Positions 1,532-10,640 of a DNA stretch of 21,558 bases are shown one piece after another; the first letter of the stretch is position 1; every line of letters starts with the position of its first letter. This stretch comes from a virus. The stretch lies in IMG/VR virus record IMGVR_UViG_3300006917_000176, positions 1-21,558 of that record. One strand, written 5' to 3'. Below the pieces are notes generated by a model that did not search any database, had not been told where the DNA came from, and saw nothing but the letters and a program-made list of their open reading frames with translations. The translations under genes and the position numbers were made by a program.

Positions 1532-1927
1532 ATGAGCAGTTGGGGCACTGTTGACCTACACGTAGACACCAGAATGGACCGGCCGGCGTCCACCATGACG
1601 GCACTCAAACAGAAGGAAGCCGAGCGGCAAGAGATCCTGTCAGCGGTCGAGTTGTTCCTGGCACAGGGGGGGTCAATTAAGACCATACCCAGCACGATCA
1701 GCAAGGAGGCCCAGTTGGGGCAGATGCGCTCGGGGAAAGTTGCGACGATCAGCATGGCCGACATCGCCAAGCGCTGGGACGTGTCGGTCAGGGTGGTGCC
1801 GGCCCTGTTGGCCAAATGGCCCACACTCATGTACATCATGTCAGGGCAGGAAAGGCTATACTCTCTGGCAGACATCCAGCGCTGCGAGTCGCAGCCGAAC
1901 TACAAGCTGCACAAGTCCACCATATGA
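1532..1927 (+). CDS. Small HTH-like protein of unknown function
   Basis: A 131-aa protein I do not recognise. Residues 27-45 form a charged helix, and residues 73-96 (ISMADIAKRWDVSVRVVPAL and following) have the spacing of a helix-turn-helix or winged-helix recognition unit, followed by a short hairpin-like stretch with RLYSLADI. No membrane segment is visible. The start is supported by AGGGGA at 1518-1523, 8 bases before the ATG. The gene sits directly downstream of the repeat array and opens an operon whose next gene overlaps its stop (ATGA at 1924). A role as the protein that binds the repeats, or as a phage regulator, is inference from position and the HTH-like segment. Confidence 0.65.
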   Translation: MSSWGTVDLHVDTRMDRPASTMTALKQKEAERQEILSAVELFLAQGGSIKTIPSTISKEAQLGQMRSGKVATISMADIAKRWDVSVRVVPALLAKWPTLMYIMSGQERLYSLADIQRCESQPNYKLHKSTI

Positions 1928-2070
1928 GCGACATCATCGGACGGACAATCGGCGCGATACTGGTGGCCCTACTGCTGCCAATAGTCTTCATCGTCTTCGC
2001 ACTGGTGTGCGTGGCGGCCATTGTCCGAACAATGACCGAAAAACCCAACGACCCGGAGTATTGGGAATGA
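1924..2070 (+). CDS. 48-aa single-pass membrane peptide
   Basis: Starts at the ATGA overlapping the previous stop and ends in another ATGA that starts the methyltransferase gene, so all three genes are probably translationally coupled. The peptide has a polar N-terminus (MSDIIGRT), one long hydrophobic segment at about residues 9-35 (many I, L, V, A, F), then a short polar tail rich in charged residues (RTMTEKPNDPEYWE). One helix with a charged tail would fit a small inner-membrane protein. Holin-like or superinfection-related roles cannot be told apart here, and no lysis genes are adjacent. Longer in-frame starts upstream lie inside the HTH-like gene and would give a non-natural arginine- and histidine-rich extension. 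Confidence 0.6.
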   Translation: MSDIIGRTIGAILVALLLPIVFIVFALVCVAAIVRTMTEKPNDPEYWE

Positions 2071-3338
2071 ATCCCGCCGATAAAATCGAACAGTGGCCCA
2101 TTGATCGGTTGATACCTTACGCTCGCAACAGCCGGACGCACTCCGACGCCCAGGTGGCACAAATCGCCGCCAGCATCAAAGAGTGGGGCTGGACCACGCC
2201 TGTGCTGGTGGACGAGGGCGGGCAGATCATTGCCGGCCATGGGCGCATCATGGCGGCCCGTAAGCTCGGCATGGCCGAGGTGCCGGTGGTCATTGCCTCC
2301 GGCTGGTCGGACGCACAGAAGCGAGCCTACGTTATCGCAGACAACAAGCTGGCACTGAACGCAGGCTGGGACAATGACCTGTTGGCGCTGGAGTTTGGCG
2401 AGCTTGAGGGGCTTGGCTTTGACCTAGAGTTGACCGGCTTCAGCCTCGATGAGATCGACGCGCTAAAACCCGTTGAGGTGGCCGCAGGCTTGACCGACGA
2501 GGACGAGGTACCAGAGGCTCCGGCCGATCCTGTTACGCGGCTGGGCGACGTTTGGCTGCTGGGGCGGCATAGGTTGATGTGTGGGGATAGTACCAGCATT
2601 GATGCGCTTGAGGCGCTGTGCCAAAAACAGCCGGTCGATATGTGGTTGACTGATCCACCGTACAACGTTGCAGTGCAAGGAGGAAATCACGGCGATCCTG
2701 AACGAAAAAACGGCAAGCGCATCATGAATGACCAGATGGGCGACGAACAATTTAGGCAGTTCCTGCGTGATTGTTATGTTGCCGCTGATGCGGTGATGAA
2801 GCCGGGCGCGGTGTTTTACATATGGCACGCTGATAGCGAAGGATACAATTTCAGAGGCGCGGCAAAAGATGCTGGATGGACTATTAGGCAGTGCCTAATA
2901 TGGAAAAAGTCATCCATTGTGATGGGTCGACAGGACTATCACTGGAAGCATGAGCCTTGTCTGTACGGATGGAAGGACGGTGCCGGGCATCTTTGGGCAT
3001 CTGATCGCAAGCAGACCACTATCTTGGAGTTTGATAGGCCAAGCCGCAACGGCGAGCATCCTACCATGAAGCCGGTGGCGCTGTTTGAGTACCAAATGCT
3101 CAACAATACCAAGGGCAACGATATTGTGCTGGATAGCTTTGGCGGCTCTGGCACAACCATGATCGCCGCCGAAAAGAATGGACGAGTGTCCCGTTTGATG
3201 GAACTCGACCCGAAATACTGCGACGTTATCGTCAAGCGCTGGCAAGACTTCACCGGCAAGCAGGCCACGCTTGAGGCCACAGGTCAAACATTTGCGGAGG
3301 TAAGCAATGGCAAAGCAAGCCAAACCGAAGCAGCCTGA
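2067..3338 (+). CDS. ParB-domain DNA methyltransferase (N4-C/N6-A type)
   Basis: 423 aa, with an N-terminal ParB/sulfiredoxin-like domain (about residues 8-95, motif IIAGHGR at 54-60) fused to a beta-class amino-methyltransferase. The catalytic motif DPPY is at 196-199, the S-adenosylmethionine motif DSFGGSGTT at 356-364, and the conserved HPTMKPV at 331-337. Motif IV before motif I is the beta-class order, as in N4-cytosine and N6-adenine DNA methyltransferases such as CcrM/MboI-type enzymes. No restriction endonuclease is beside it, so it is likely an orphan enzyme that marks phage DNA, either against host restriction or for timing of packaging or replication. Start at 2067 overlaps the stop of the membrane peptide. 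Its 3' end overlaps the small terminase gene by 32 bases. Target sequence cannot be read from the protein. Confidence 0.93.
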   Translation: MNPADKIEQWPIDRLIPYARNSRTHSDAQVAQIAASIKEWGWTTPVLVDEGGQIIAGHGRIMAARKLGMAEVPVVIASGWSDAQKRAYVIADNKLALNAGWDNDLLALEFGELEGLGFDLELTGFSLDEIDALKPVEVAAGLTDEDEVPEAPADPVTRLGDVWLLGRHRLMCGDSTSIDALEALCQKQPVDMWLTDPPYNVAVQGGNHGDPERKNGKRIMNDQMGDEQFRQFLRDCYVAADAVMKPGAVFYIWHADSEGYNFRGAAKDAGWTIRQCLIWKKSSIVMGRQDYHWKHEPCLYGWKDGAGHLWASDRKQTTILEFDRPSRNGEHPTMKPVALFEYQMLNNTKGNDIVLDSFGGSGTTMIAAEKNGRVSRLMELDPKYCDVIVKRWQDFTGKQATLEATGQTFAEVSNGKASQTEAA

Positions 3339-4981: not shown

Positions 4982-7072
4982 ATGGCCCGCATTTCAAAAG
5001 ATCAGTACCTGGCAAACCTGCACGCCGAAGCGCTCAAGGAGTTCGATGACATCCAGAGCGCCTTGCGTGATGAAAGGCTCCAGTGCCTTCAAGATCGACG
5101 GTTCTACTCAATCGCCGGCGCACAGTGGGAAGGCCCGCTGGGCGAACAGTTTGAGAACAAACCGAAGTTTGAGGTCAACAAGATCGCCTCGGCCGTCCTC
5201 CGCATCATCAGCGAGTACCGCAGCAACCGCGTGACCGTGGACTTCGTATCGAAGGACGGCACCAAGGACGTGAAGCTGGCCGATGTGTGTGATGGCCTGT
5301 TCCGCGCCGATGAAATGGACTCCTGCGCCGAAGAAGCTTATGACAACGCTTTCGAGGAAGCTGTGGCTGGCGGCTTCGGTGCGTTCAGGCTCAGGACCGA
5401 ATGGGAGGACGAGTACGACGAGGACAACGACCGCCAGCGCATCCGCATCGAGCCGATATTCGATGCCGACAGCTCCGTGTTCTTTGACCTGAACGCCAAG
5501 CGCCAGGACAAGGCCGACGCCACGCGCTGCTTTGTGATCACCGCGGTGACCCGCGCCGCGTATCAGGCCGAATGGGGCGACGACCCGGCAAGCTGGCCGA
5601 AAGAAGTTTATCAAACGGAGTTTGATTGGCTCACGCCTGATGTTGTGTACATCGCAGAGTACTACCGCGTCGAGGACGTGAAGGAGACGATCCGGATCTA
5701 CCAGAACCTAGATGGCACTGAGGACCGCTACAGCGAAATGGACTTTGAGTCCGATCCTGAGCTTGAGCGCACGCTGGAGGCCATCGGTTCCGTCGAGGTA
5801 CGGCAGAAAAAGGTCAAGCGCCGCAAGGTTCGCAAATACTTGATGAACGGTGCGCGCATCCTGGAGGATCTTGGCCACATCGCCGGCAAGTGCATTCCTA
5901 TCGTGCCGGTCTACGGCAAACGCTGGTACATCGACAACGTAGAGCGCTGCATGGGCCACGTCCGTCTCGCCAAGGACGCACAGCGCTTGGCCAACATGCA
6001 ACGCTCCAAGCTTGGCGAGATTGCCGCGCTCTCCAGCATCGAGAAGCCAATCTTCCTGCCCGAGCAGGTCGCCGGCCATCAGTTGATGTGGAGCGAGGAC
6101 AACCTCCGCAACTATCCGTACCTGCTGCTTAACCCGGTGACCGACCAGAACGGCAACCAAGCCGCCACCGGCCCAATTGGCTACACCAAGCCGCCCGTGG
6201 TGCCGCCCGCCATGGACGCGCTGCTCACCGTCACCGAGAAAGACATGCAAGACGTGCTGGGCAACCAGCAGCAAGCCGACAAGATGGTCAGCAACATTTC
6301 CGGCAAGGCCGTCGAGCTGATCCAACAGCGCGTCGATATGCAGAGCTTCATCTACATCAGCAACTGGAGCAAGGCCGTCAAGCGCTGCGGCGAGGTCTGG
6401 CTGGAAATGGCCCGTGACGTGTACGTCGAGAAAGGCCGACGAATGAAAATGGTCGGCGCTCAGGATGAGGTGGACAGCATCGAGCTGATGCGGCCGATGA
6501 TGACCGAGACTGGCGAAGTCGAAATGGAAAACGACCTGTCCAAAGCCACGTTCGATGTGAACGTGGATGTCGGCCCGTCCAGCTCCAGCAAGCGACAGGC
6601 AACGGTGCGTGCGCTCATGAACATGATTGCCATCACGCAAGATCCGGAAATCTCGCAGGTGTTGCAGTCGATGGCCATCATGAACATGGAAGGCGAGGGC
6701 ATTGGAGACGTAAAAGACTTTTTCCGCCAGCGCCTGCTCAAGATGGGCGTGGTCAAGCCTACGCAAGACGAAGCGCAGCAGCTTGCCATGGAAGCCATGC
6801 AGGCCGCGCAACAGCAAGATCCGAACGCCATCTTCCTCCAAGCCGCTGCCGAGGAAGCCATCGCCAAGGCCGCACGCGCACGCGCCGATACTGTCCGAAC
6901 GGTGGCAGACTCGGAGCTTATCCGCGCCAAAACCATCGAAACACTGGCGAAGGTGGATATGGACGCCAACGAACAGGCGCTCTCAAACGCCGCTATCATT
7001 GGGCAAATGGCTGCCCAGCAAGCCACGCAGCCGCCCGTATCCCTGCCAACCAGACCGCCCGAGGTGCTGTAA
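4982..7072 (+). CDS. Portal protein, P22 gp1-like
   Basis: 696 aa, close to the 725 aa of P22 gp1. The dodecameric portal forms the DNA channel at one capsid vertex and docks the terminase and later gp4. The N-terminal half has the typical pattern EVNKIASAVLRIISEYRSNR (about residues 63-82), then an acidic stretch with EWEDEYDEDNDR. The mid-region contains GNQQQADKMVSNISGKAV around 433-450. The C-terminal 100 residues are predicted helical, rich in Ala and Gln (after DEAQQLAMEAMQAAQQQDPN), which fits the C-terminal helical barrel of P22-type portals, though this barrel looks short. Ribosome site GGAGGT at 4968-4973. Confidence 0.93.
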   Translation: MARISKDQYLANLHAEALKEFDDIQSALRDERLQCLQDRRFYSIAGAQWEGPLGEQFENKPKFEVNKIASAVLRIISEYRSNRVTVDFVSKDGTKDVKLADVCDGLFRADEMDSCAEEAYDNAFEEAVAGGFGAFRLRTEWEDEYDEDNDRQRIRIEPIFDADSSVFFDLNAKRQDKADATRCFVITAVTRAAYQAEWGDDPASWPKEVYQTEFDWLTPDVVYIAEYYRVEDVKETIRIYQNLDGTEDRYSEMDFESDPELERTLEAIGSVEVRQKKVKRRKVRKYLMNGARILEDLGHIAGKCIPIVPVYGKRWYIDNVERCMGHVRLAKDAQRLANMQRSKLGEIAALSSIEKPIFLPEQVAGHQLMWSEDNLRNYPYLLLNPVTDQNGNQAATGPIGYTKPPVVPPAMDALLTVTEKDMQDVLGNQQQADKMVSNISGKAVELIQQRVDMQSFIYISNWSKAVKRCGEVWLEMARDVYVEKGRRMKMVGAQDEVDSIELMRPMMTETGEVEMENDLSKATFDVNVDVGPSSSSKRQATVRALMNMIAITQDPEISQVLQSMAIMNMEGEGIGDVKDFFRQRLLKMGVVKPTQDEAQQLAMEAMQAAQQQDPNAIFLQAAAEEAIAKAARARADTVRTVADSELIRAKTIETLAKVDMDANEQALSNAAIIGQMAAQQATQPPVSLPTRPPEVL

Positions 7073-7894
7073 ATGGCCGACCTGCTCAAAGCCGCAAAAG
7101 ATCCAAAGTTTCGCGAGGATGTCATCCGAGGACTGGGCGAGACGTTCAGCCGTGGCGTCGCTGGCGTTCTCGGCGCTCCGGTGGACCTGACCACGATGGC
7201 CATGCGGCCATTTGGCTACAACGTCCCGGCCGAGCAGGTGGTGGGTGGCTCAGAGTACATCGGTCGGCAGATGGAAGAAGCCGGGCTGATATCCAGCGCT
7301 CGGCGTCCAGCCGCTGAGTTTCTGGCCAACGTGTTGACGCCTGATCCTATGGACGTGGCAAAACTTGGTGCAATGGCTGTTCCAGTGGTTGGAAGAGTAA
7401 TGAATGATGTTTCAGCAAAAGGAATGACTCTTGTTAAGCAGGAAGCTAAAACAATGAGCGCAAACGATTTTTTGGATGCAAATGTCAGCGACGTACTTCC
7501 TGCCCATATAAAAACAGGAACAAAGCCAAAAACAGTTGTTCACGAAAACATGCCTTTAAGTTCTTTAACTCCATCAGAATATGATGAGTTTGAGGAAATA
7601 CTTGATTCTCCAAAGTCTTACGAGAAAGTTAAACAAATGGTTGGAAAGGAATTGCCGCCAATACTTGTTAAAGGAACATCTGAAGACACGCGATATTTGC
7701 CTCAAGTGATAGATGGGCATCACAGAACCATGGCTGCAATCATGGAAAAAAAACAAGCAATACCAGTTTCTTATGACGCAGAAACTCTTGCGGAGATATG
7801 GAAAAAACAAAACAACGACCCAAGAAGCGCAAGAGAAATAGTTAAAGAGTTTGAAAAAAACATAGAATCAAGATTTTCAAAAGAGGCTAAGTAG
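7073..7894 (+). CDS. Phage virion-associated protein with C-terminal ParB/sulfiredoxin-like domain
   Basis: 273 aa in two parts. Residues 1 to about 100 resemble the N-terminal region seen in phage proteins that travel with the portal (GVLGAPVDLTTMAMRPFGY, then YIGRQMEEAGLI, then LTPDPMDVAKLGA). The rest is a separate domain whose core, PPILVKG at 195-201 and QVIDGHHRTMAAIMEKKQAI at 211-230, matches the ParB/sulfiredoxin fold with its G-H-x-R-type catalytic loop. In polyvalent phage proteins and polymorphic toxins such domains act as nucleases or nucleotide-dependent enzymes. GC drops from about 55% to about 32% in the second part and recovers exactly at the next gene, so this half looks acquired. 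Start follows the portal stop with no gap (GAGGTG at 7061-7066). Domain call good; activity unknown. It may be delivered with the DNA or act in the infected cell. Confidence 0.75.
   Translation: MADLLKAAKDPKFREDVIRGLGETFSRGVAGVLGAPVDLTTMAMRPFGYNVPAEQVVGGSEYIGRQMEEAGLISSARRPAAEFLANVLTPDPMDVAKLGAMAVPVVGRVMNDVSAKGMTLVKQEAKTMSANDFLDANVSDVLPAHIKTGTKPKTVVHENMPLSSLTPSEYDEFEEILDSPKSYEKVKQMVGKELPPILVKGTSEDTRYLPQVIDGHHRTMAAIMEKKQAIPVSYDAETLAEIWKKQNNDPRSAREIVKEFEKNIESRFSKEAK
7361..7891 (+). other. AT-rich, probably transferred segment encoding the ParB-like domain
   Basis: Row counts give G+C of 33/60 at 7081-7140, 19/60 at 7561-7620, 19/60 at 7801-7860, and 38/60 at 7921-7980. Codons change as well, to AAA, GAA, ATA, CTT and TTT. 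The left border lies near codon 97-110 of the gene and the right border coincides with its stop. This is the only such island in the window. Confidence 0.8.
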
Positions 7895-7895
7895 C

Positions 7896-8381
7896 ATGGC
7901 CCTGTTCAACTTCAACCGCCTGACCGGCAAGCTGATGAGCCAGTTCAACGAGAACGGCACCGGCGAGAAGACGCCCACCGGCTCGCCCATCAATCCGGTG
8001 GAGCCGTTCCGGGGGATCCGGCCGATGCCGGCCAACCCGAGGCTTGGCTTCTTTGGTGGCCTTGGCCAGATCGCGCCGCTAATCCAGGCAGACCAGACGC
8101 GCCGGCTTGGTTTCAAGGGACCAGCAAGGCCCGAGGACAAGCGCCAGATGCCGACCGACGCGATGTTTGAAGAAGGCGCAGCCGCTGCCCCGGCTCCGGC
8201 ACCGTCTGAGCAGGCCATCATGCTGCAACCTCAGCGGCCACAGCCGGCCTTCATGAATGCCGTGGCTCAGGCCGGCGCACAGCCGCCACAGGGCGCGCAA
8301 GGCCAGCAGGGACTACCAGACTTCACCGATGACCAACTTCGCGCCCTAGCGCAAATGGTGGCGCGGTTCATACGCTTTTGA
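7896..8381 (+). CDS. Pro/Ala/Gln-rich hypothetical virion protein
   Basis: 161 aa, not recognised. The N-terminal 90 residues include MALFNFNRLTGKL and a Pro-Gly-rich stretch (PVEPFRGIRPMPANPRLGFF). A low-complexity linker follows (AAAAPAPAPSEQ, QPQRPQPA, QPPQGAQGQQG), then a C-terminal amphipathic segment DDQLRALAQMVARFIRF that could be a docking helix. It lies between the portal-side effector gene and the scaffold, where other P22-like phages rarely have a gene. Its start ATG is one base after the previous stop. A head-assembly or internal protein is a reasonable guess, but no function is shown. Confidence 0.7.
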   Translation: MALFNFNRLTGKLMSQFNENGTGEKTPTGSPINPVEPFRGIRPMPANPRLGFFGGLGQIAPLIQADQTRRLGFKGPARPEDKRQMPTDAMFEEGAAAAPAPAPSEQAIMLQPQRPQPAFMNAVAQAGAQPPQGAQGQQGLPDFTDDQLRALAQMVARFIRF

Positions 8382-8490
8382 ACTATACTGCTTTCAACCT
8401 TGACAAACTGATCCTGCGGCGAGTGCCGCCAGTCTGCTGGGAATCACGGCATCCGGCCCGCCGTCCAGGGCTGAGTACAATGGGGTCACT
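8382..8490 (+). promoter_or_regulatory. 109-base leader before the scaffold gene
   Basis: The longest gap inside the head operon. It contains a TTGACA at 8400-8405 with no matching -10, a TATACT at 8384-8389 with no matching -35, and a TACAAT at 8476-8481. A small GC hairpin (GCGGC/GCCGC, 8416-8429) has no T run after it. The scaffold ribosome site is GGGG at 8482-8485. The gap may carry a weak promoter or a structure that adjusts scaffold and coat translation; the sequence alone does not settle it. Confidence 0.25.
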
Positions 8491-9333
8491 ATGACAGACG
8501 AAACGGCAGAGGTCGAAGTACCAGACTTAGAAATCGAGCAACCCGAGCAGATAGGCGAAGAACAAGAGGCTCCCGCCAGCCCGCCCGAGGTTGAAGAAGA
8601 TGAGGTCATGGTCACGATTGGGGAGGAAGCGCCGCCTCCAGAGGAACATGCTCAAGCGCCTGAATGGGTGCGCGAGTTGCGTAAACAGCACCGGCAGTTG
8701 CAGCGCGAAAAGCGCGAACTTGAGGAAAAGCTGAAGACCGTCAGTCAACCGGCCGAGAGGCCAATCACTGTCGGGAAAAAGCCAACCCTTGAGGAGTACG
8801 ACTACGATGCTGAGAAGTACGAGAGTGAGCTGGCAGCGTGGTTCGAGAGAAAGGCGAAAGCGGACGAGGCTCAGGCCCGTGCGCGACGTGCCGAACTCGA
8901 TGCACAGCAAGCTTGGCAGCAGAAGCTTGACAGCTACGGCAAGGCCCGTGGCGAACTCAAGGTGCGGGACTTTGAAGATGCTGAGGCTACGGTCTCGGAA
9001 ACGCTCAACGTCACGCAGCAGGGCGTCCTGCTTCAGGGGGCTGAAAATCCCGCGCTGCTCGTATACGCACTCGGCAAAAACCCGTCAAAGGCGAAAGAGC
9101 TTGCCTCGATACAGGACCCTGTGAAATTCGCTTTCGCGGTAGCAAAACTGGAGACGCAATTGAAAGTTCAAAACCGTAAAGCGGCCACGCCGCCAGAGAA
9201 AACAGTCCGGGGAACCGGGCCAGTATCCGGTGCCGTGGACTCAACCCTTGAACGCCTGCGGGCTGATGCGGAAAGGACTGGTGACTTCTCGAAAGTCATG
9301 GCCTACAAGCGCCAGCAGAAGGCAAAACGCTGA
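8491..9333 (+). CDS. Scaffolding protein, P22 gp8-like
   Basis: 280 aa (P22 gp8 is 303). It should guide assembly of the procapsid and then leave. The N-terminal 55 residues are very acidic and proline-containing. Residues 59-85 (WVRELRKQHRQLQREKRELE onwards) and 110-150 are charged helices able to form coiled coils. The C-terminus (TGDFSKVMAYKRQQKAKR, residues 263-280) is strongly basic and resembles the coat-binding helix-loop-helix end of P22 scaffold. Position immediately before the coat gene supports the call. Confidence 0.88.
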   Translation: MTDETAEVEVPDLEIEQPEQIGEEQEAPASPPEVEEDEVMVTIGEEAPPPEEHAQAPEWVRELRKQHRQLQREKRELEEKLKTVSQPAERPITVGKKPTLEEYDYDAEKYESELAAWFERKAKADEAQARARRAELDAQQAWQQKLDSYGKARGELKVRDFEDAEATVSETLNVTQQGVLLQGAENPALLVYALGKNPSKAKELASIQDPVKFAFAVAKLETQLKVQNRKAATPPEKTVRGTGPVSGAVDSTLERLRADAERTGDFSKVMAYKRQQKAKR

Positions 9334-9356: not shown

Positions 9357-10640
9357 ATGGCAAACTCATTTTCCAAAGAAGAACGCGTAGCGTTTGAAGA
9401 CATCCTGGAAGGCTTTAATGACCTTCTCGTCCTGAGCAAGAACGTGTCGGTCTACAACACCGATCAGACGATGATGGCTCGCACCAACAACGTCATCTGG
9501 CGTCCACAGCCGTACATCAGCCAGTCTTTCTCCGGCACTGACATGACGGCCAACTTCGTTGACTACACGCAGCTTTCTGTTCCTGCCACTATCGGCTTCA
9601 GCCGTTCAGTGCCGTGGATCATGAACGCTCAAGAACTGCGCGACGCTCTGCAAGAGCAACGCCTGGGCGAAAGCGCCAAGCAGAAGCTGGCGTCTGACAT
9701 CAACGTCGCAATGCTGAACGTAGCATCTGCTCAAGGCACGCTGGTTGTTCCCATCACTGGCGGCGCTGGCGACTACGACGACGTAGCCCAAGCTGATGCA
9801 CTGATGAACGAGCAAGGCGTTCCCAACTTCGACCGCAGCCTGGCGCTCTCCAGCCGTGACTACAACGGTCTGGCTGGCAACATCGCTACCGGCGCAGGCA
9901 CTGGCGCTCGCTCCTTCAACGGCAACAAGTCCAACAACGCCTACGAGCGCAGCTTCGTCGGTATGGTAGCTGGCTTTGAGACGTTCAAAATGGACTACGC
10001 CAACCGTCTGGCTGCCGCTGCTGGTGGTGTCACCACGATCAACACGACCGTTGCCGGTGGTAACTTCTGGGTGCCGACTGCAACTTCCGTTGCCGTCACC
10101 GGCGAAATCTCCAACGTGGACAACCGCTTCCAGACTGTCACCGTTTCCAACACGGTCGGCATCGCTCCGGGCGACGCGTTCACCATCGAGGACGTGGAAG
10201 CTGTACATCACATCACCAAGCAGTCTACTGGCCGCGACAAGACCTTCCGGGTCATCAGCATCGTCAACGGCACGCAGATGGTTATCAGCCCTGCCATCGT
10301 TTCCGCTCAAGGCGGCACCGATTCCGAGCTGCAATACCAAAACGTGGTTGTCACTGCGCCCAACGCTGCCGCTGGCATCACTTGGTTGAACGCCAACGCC
10401 ACCACGATCAACCCGTTCTGGCAACGCGATGCGCTTGAAATCCTGCCCGGCCGTTATGCAGTACCTGCTGACGCTGGCGTGGCTGTCATGCGCGGAACGA
10501 CTGATCAGGGCATTGAGCTGGTCATGCAGAAGTTCTACGACATCAACAACATGAACATCAAATACCGTCTCGACACTCTGTTCGGCGTTGTGAACAAGCA
10601 ACCCGAAATGTCCGGTATCTTGATCTTCGGCCAGCCGTAA
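9357..10640 (+). CDS. Major capsid (coat) protein, P22 gp5-like
   Basis: 427 aa, against 430 for P22 gp5, with an HK97-type fold. The first part (about 1-220) includes SVYNTDQTMMARTNNVIWRP and DINVAMLNVASAQGTLVV. A beta-rich block of about residues 223-345 (VTTINTTVAGGNFWVP to AGITWLNA) occupies the place of the P22 insertion (I) domain, which stabilises the fold and contacts neighbouring subunits. The C-terminal strand ends in GILIFGQP. A strong ribosome site (AGGAG at 9343-9347) suits a highly made protein. Confidence 0.93.
   Translation: MANSFSKEERVAFEDILEGFNDLLVLSKNVSVYNTDQTMMARTNNVIWRPQPYISQSFSGTDMTANFVDYTQLSVPATIGFSRSVPWIMNAQELRDALQEQRLGESAKQKLASDINVAMLNVASAQGTLVVPITGGAGDYDDVAQADALMNEQGVPNFDRSLALSSRDYNGLAGNIATGAGTGARSFNGNKSNNAYERSFVGMVAGFETFKMDYANRLAAAAGGVTTINTTVAGGNFWVPTATSVAVTGEISNVDNRFQTVTVSNTVGIAPGDAFTIEDVEAVHHITKQSTGRDKTFRVISIVNGTQMVISPAIVSAQGGTDSELQYQNVVVTAPNAAAGITWLNANATTINPFWQRDALEILPGRYAVPADAGVAVMRGTTDQGIELVMQKFYDINNMNIKYRLDTLFGVVNKQPEMSGILIFGQP

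Follow-up and report, generated by a model that had tools for sequence, protein, structure and literature searches.

Organization of the head operon

The window, i.e., the whole stretch of 21,558 nucleotides analyzed here, is a viral fragment (IMG/VR IMGVR_UViG_3300006917_000176, positions 1–21,558), and whole-phage context was judged on this fragment and its relatives. It contained a head operon of the P22-like podovirus type, in which Pfam and PHROG matches placed TerL, the P22 portal, scaffold and coat in order. The complete gene order was terminase, portal, the gene at 7073–7894, a gene for a 161-aa protein, scaffold and coat, with putative ejection proteins further on. The ATG of the 7073–7894 gene abuts the TAA stop codon of the portal gene (7070–7072). 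The N-terminal part of its product is designated here the carrier and the C-terminal part the payload; the space between portal and scaffold is designated the slot.

4982–7072, plus strand: P22-type portal protein, 696 aa, left neighbor of the slot (Pfam P22_portal, E 2.9e-158; PHROG 156, E 1.1e-141)
7073–7894, plus strand: carrier-payload fusion gene, 273 aa (open reading frame; same fusion in L002)
7073–7390, plus strand: carrier module, residues 1–106, common to relatives with other C-terminal domains (N-terminal alignment)
7375–7393, plus strand: junction where DNA homology ends (blastn ends at 7392 for L002, 7392 for L003, 7393 for L004 and 7375 for L005)
7391–7891, plus strand: AT-rich payload with a predicted ParB/sulfiredoxin-fold domain at residues ~116–270 (composition, PDB profile search, AlphaFold, Foldseek)
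7541–7543, plus strand: His157, nearly invariant, candidate functional residue (payload-family alignment)
7577–7579, plus strand: Glu169, nearly invariant, candidate functional residue (payload-family alignment)
7712–7726, plus strand: DGHHR motif, residues 214–218, where ParB has its phosphate-binding GxxR box (11 of 11 aligned rows)
7896–8381, plus strand: Pro/Gln/Ala-rich protein, 161 aa (homologs in L005, 86%, and L120, 76%)
8491–9333, plus strand: scaffolding protein, right boundary of the slot (PHROG 648, E 3.1e-56)
9357–10640, plus strand: major coat protein (PHROG 283, E 1.2e-66)

Composition break inside the fusion gene

The G+C content was 0.607 over 7073–7390, fell to 0.375 over 7391–7891 and was 0.650 in the next gene. 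A likelihood scan placed the lowest-G+C segment of the window at 7389–7897 (z = -6.7 versus the rest of the window), and all 501-base windows elsewhere in the fragment had a G+C of at least 0.459. Third-codon G+C was 0.28 in the payload, 0.64 in the carrier and 0.58–0.78 in the other genes measured; the minimum over 150 bases, 0.33, also fell in the payload. In composition, the payload is foreign to the rest of the fragment. The initial annotation had located this drop correctly and was right about its sharpness, but its figure of about 32% for the payload was too low (37–38% measured). It had also allowed that the break might vanish in a wider context; the break persisted both in the fragment-wide scan and in comparison with relatives. 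Outside the L007 group, G+C after the carrier was lower than that of the carrier by at least 0.06 in nine of ten carrier relatives, the exception being L042, in which carrier and remainder differed by only 0.01. Members of the L007 group showed no drop after the carrier.

Exchange of C-terminal domains behind a conserved carrier

Carrier relatives were sought among viral contigs, first with the full-length protein and next with an alignment of its N-terminal part. Behind one carrier, in the same genomic slot, C-terminal regions of no fewer than five kinds were found, and the portal upstream and/or the scaffold downstream accompanied the carrier gene in all of L002–L007, L026–L028 and L044. A ParB payload was present in the window, in L002 (payload 53% identical) and in L044. 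L004 had an ART-PolyVal-like payload (E 8e-5, below the Pfam cut-off); the ART label of L003 and L026 derives from a common linker and YHGT/YRGT-like motifs, without a Pfam match. Another payload, LPD23 with an HExxH-like motif, occurred in L005 (4e-10) and L170 (3e-12), and GNAT payloads in L027 (1e-5) and L028 (2e-6), the latter with an additional DGHHS ParB-like end. L042 contained an ART domain above the Pfam cut-off, but in a different gene neighborhood. The L007 group had a 425-aa carrier fusion (L007:4962–6236), whose C-terminal part (G+C 0.65) matched no Pfam or PHROG family. The gene looks like a docking place for exchangeable effector domains, which are replaced at a fixed junction behind a conserved carrier. 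The suggestion in the initial annotation that different phages carry different enzymes after the same N-terminal region was thus borne out, the C-terminal domains listed across homologs being different rather than the same throughout.

Beyond the payload, DNA homology returned at 8446 (L002), 8377 (L003), 8376 (L004) and 7895 (L005). The four junction ends are not fully independent, as L003 and L004 have a common ART leader. In the comparison of the window with L002, synonymous pS was 0.85 (saturated) in the payload versus 0.59 in the carrier, 0.53 in the portal and 0.57 in the scaffold. Because synonymous sites are saturated in the payload and not in the chassis, the two ParB payloads were probably acquired separately, from a common pool.

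In six contigs (L006, L008, L009, L010, L012 and L013, identical at this place), insertion of a single G, as compared with L007, truncates the 425-aa open reading frame at codon 156 (~5399 in L006); the frame was intact in L007 and its relatives.

Occupancy of the portal-scaffold slot

We surveyed 80 portal relatives, of which 69 had a locatable scaffold. The slot was empty in 68 of these 69, with a portal-scaffold gap of only 9–161 bases. Among the 11 relatives without a located scaffold, L170 had the carrier with LPD23, and L176 had a Kelch protein. In L120, whose portal is 96% identical to that of the window, the slot (L120:7443–11529) held six open reading frames, including a Gp80-type head/fiber protein and, with no carrier present, a homolog (76%) of the window's 7896 gene. 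Among phages whose portals are at least 90% identical, five slot states occurred: ParB, ART-like (L003, L004), LPD23/HExxH (L005), decoration/fiber-like (L120) and empty (L121). Since most relatives lack the gene, it is dispensable for assembly. A literature search of open-licence papers yielded no description of the portal-scaffold slot.

The carrier module

The carrier matched no Pfam, PHROG or NCBIfam family and had no relative among the other proteins of the window. Its AlphaFold model was of low confidence (pLDDT < 50). A carrier core of ~41 residues recurred inside large phage proteins, and 19 of the 53 carrier-core open reading frames longer than 600 aa had an N-terminal transglycosylase-like domain (SLT). 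In these 19 loci, among L058–L099, the core motif lies in the middle of the protein and the transglycosylase-like domain at its start. As judged by sequence, this occurrence fits, without proving, a role of the carrier in virion-delivered proteins; that it may serve as a packaging signal is a guess.

A pattern search of 84,980 species genomes detected no carrier, whether as a bacterial-genome or a prophage copy. By tblastn, the carrier and the ParB clade were unmatched in 50,697 phage records, in which only unrelated chance-level matches (E ≥ 0.5) occurred; no significant match was obtained in the phage collection with the full-length protein, with either of its halves or with three related proteins. 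Therefore, the carrier and this ParB clade appear largely unseen in cultured phages. We also considered an internal start at the junction and rejected it, as Met110 is not conserved in L002.

The ParB/sulfiredoxin payload

Fold and profile matches agreed with each other, and with the initial annotation, in supporting assignment of the payload to the ParB/sulfiredoxin superfamily. A three-sequence AlphaFold run was poor (pLDDT 42.7), and the model used came from a 21-sequence run, in which residues 116–270 had pLDDT values mostly above 90. In Foldseek searches of this model against PDB, all 50 matches listed were ParB, Noc, KorB, PadC, Srx, SbnI or SerK (including the P. furiosus homolog), with weak E-values (best 3.9e-3), and the named fold matches in the viral library were mostly phage ParB-like proteins. 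The alignment profile matched SbnI (2e-4), ParB (0.01), and sulfiredoxin and SerK (~0.6) in PDB. A phmmer search of PDB with the payload alone gave no match, and single-sequence Pfam, PHROG, NCBIfam and PADLOC scans of the window protein assigned no family and gave only weak ParB matches. A DdrB-type ParB was rejected (no match of the window to Pfam PF18763 at E ≤ 10), as was a canonical partition ParB (TIGR00180, ParB with HTH, score 13.5 bits, cut-off 58.45). ParBc_2 (PF08857) was unmatched in the window and matched by 3 of the 11 members of the payload-family alignment (best 3.1e-5). A scan of genome contigs with the ParB family found two weak relatives only.

The alignment contained 11 sequences, and the GxxR phosphate-binding (P) motif was present in the form DGHHR, invariant in all of them, at residues 214–218 as first annotated. 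The literature names DGHHR as the motif conserved in ParB domains of toxins (PMC3482391). With SbnI/SerK free serine kinases, ParB CTPases and sulfiredoxin, the payload has in common the fold and a DGxHR-type phosphate loop, although only the core (~62 profile positions) is common. The ParB/Srx fold also includes non-enzymatic NTP switches, and we know of no activity established for this particular clade. A 2025 survey shows binding of ATP, CTP or GTP by members of this fold, with a choice of nucleotide that cannot be predicted from sequence (PMC12704722); hence, no nucleotide is claimed for the payload. The payload probably binds an NTP, and we consider phosphotransfer and nuclease action about equally plausible as its activity.

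The ParB module was also fused to ART in large proteins of L103 and L106. In L105, a stand-alone ParB module (L105:2292–2732) lies directly behind a gene for a virion structural protein. The N-terminus of this module, MLRFKQFIIE, presumably resembles the T4 capsid-targeting peptide.

Comparison with known delivered effectors

The polyvalent proteins (PMC5512222), some of which are packaged, e.g., P1 DdrB, draw on the same pool of domains (ParB, ART, GNAT, LPDs, metallopeptidase-like) beside virion genes, and payloads of this pool (ART-PolyVal, LPD23, GNAT and ParB) were found here in the head operon. Unlike polyvalent proteins, the proteins described here are short, with one or two effector domains, an undescribed carrier and a fixed portal-scaffold slot, and, unlike in DdrB, the domain of the window has no match to the Pfam ddrB-ParB family. 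MuF toxins (PMC5576092) likewise combine a constant, head-gene-linked N-terminus with variable C-terminal enzymes including ART. In contrast to these, the present family has an unrelated carrier (neither Pfam nor PHROGs gave a MuF match in the window protein) and belongs to P22-like podoviruses; no payload-specific immunity gene was seen and no prophage copies were found. The P1 Dar proteins DarB and DdrB are head-packaged and probably injected, with an N-terminal packaging signal and, in DdrB, a ParB-type domain; the window protein differs in phage and domain clade. The closest working likeness would be virion-delivered effectors of the polyvalent or MuF type, a kind that is itself already known.

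Proposed role and alternatives

We are inclined, with some reserve, to regard the 7073–7894 gene as an accessory cargo gene, whose carrier bears an exchangeable effector that would be delivered to the host and act there in an NTP-dependent manner. During assembly, the carrier would direct the fusion protein to the inside of the head or to the portal, and the protein would leave the virion with the DNA. In the newly infected cell, the ParB/Srx payload could act as an NTP-dependent phosphotransferase or nuclease and may target host defense or metabolism, in the manner of the early-acting P1 Dar proteins or T4 Alt. Delivery of the payload into the host as such seems reasonably likely, because of the position in the head operon, the carrier core in large transglycosylase proteins, the fusion of the ParB module to ART (L103/L106) and its location beside a virion structural protein (L105). 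There is perhaps an even chance that we are dealing with an undescribed delivery family, in which the ~106-residue carrier docks interchangeable effectors for head packaging and injection and the portal-scaffold interval serves as a cassette site, switching between near-identical phages; candidate docked effectors are the ParB/Srx kinase- or nuclease-like, ART-like, metallopeptidase-like and GNAT domains.

An unlikely explanation is that the fusion protein works late, in the producing cell, in head assembly or in host shut-off near lysis, with no injection. The gene does belong to the late head operon, where its start codon adjoins the stop codon of the portal gene, and our measurements do not separate packaging from late cytoplasmic action. 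However, payload identity varies while the neighbors persist, and the payload types are those placed by the literature in delivered proteins (PMC5512222). It is quite unlikely that the product is a MuF-like polymorphic toxin that kills competitors or superinfected cells, the producer being protected by a cognate immunity gene. Both ART and ParB are domains typical of toxins. As in MuF toxins of temperate phages (PMC5576092), a constant N-terminus is followed by a variable C-terminus, and DGHHR ParB domains are counted among polymorphic toxins (PMC3482391). Against this, the 7896–8381 gene persists next to another payload in L005 and without the carrier in L120, so that it was rejected as a payload-specific immunity gene, and the absence of the carrier from the bacterial genomes and prophages searched leaves a temperate life unsupported.

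That the payload is a neutral passenger, a functionless AT-rich fragment captured by an accessory gene, is very improbable. The gene is missing from most relatives and a one-base insertion shortens the payload in the six L006-group contigs, but the ParB core is kept across the 11 sequences (DGHHR invariant, His157 and Glu169 nearly so), and the frame is intact in both the window and L002 even though synonymous sites between them are saturated. An assembly chimera or local composition noise is practically out of the question. The window is a single metagenomic contig, yet an independent contig, L002, whose chassis DNA is 79–80% identical, contains the same fusion of carrier and ParB, which refutes a chimera. 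In addition, homology with L005 resumes at 7895, past a different payload, the junctions are clean and convergent, and the composition break is strong (z = -6.7).

If the accessory-cargo reading is correct, the carrier would serve as a small, naturally occurring tag for packaging into P22-type heads, and the sequences behind it in other phages would form a candidate list of anti-defense or host-takeover enzymes. Early phage effectors could then be sought in the slot.

Other ParB-type domains

A second, unrelated ParB-type domain was found in the same phage, in the form of a fusion of ParB_N with an N6/N4 DNA methyltransferase (window 1740–3338). L104, a relative of the window's phage with a 75% identical methyltransferase, contained the ParB module behind another N-terminus (L104:1457–2215), in a gene located upstream of those for the methyltransferase and the small terminase.
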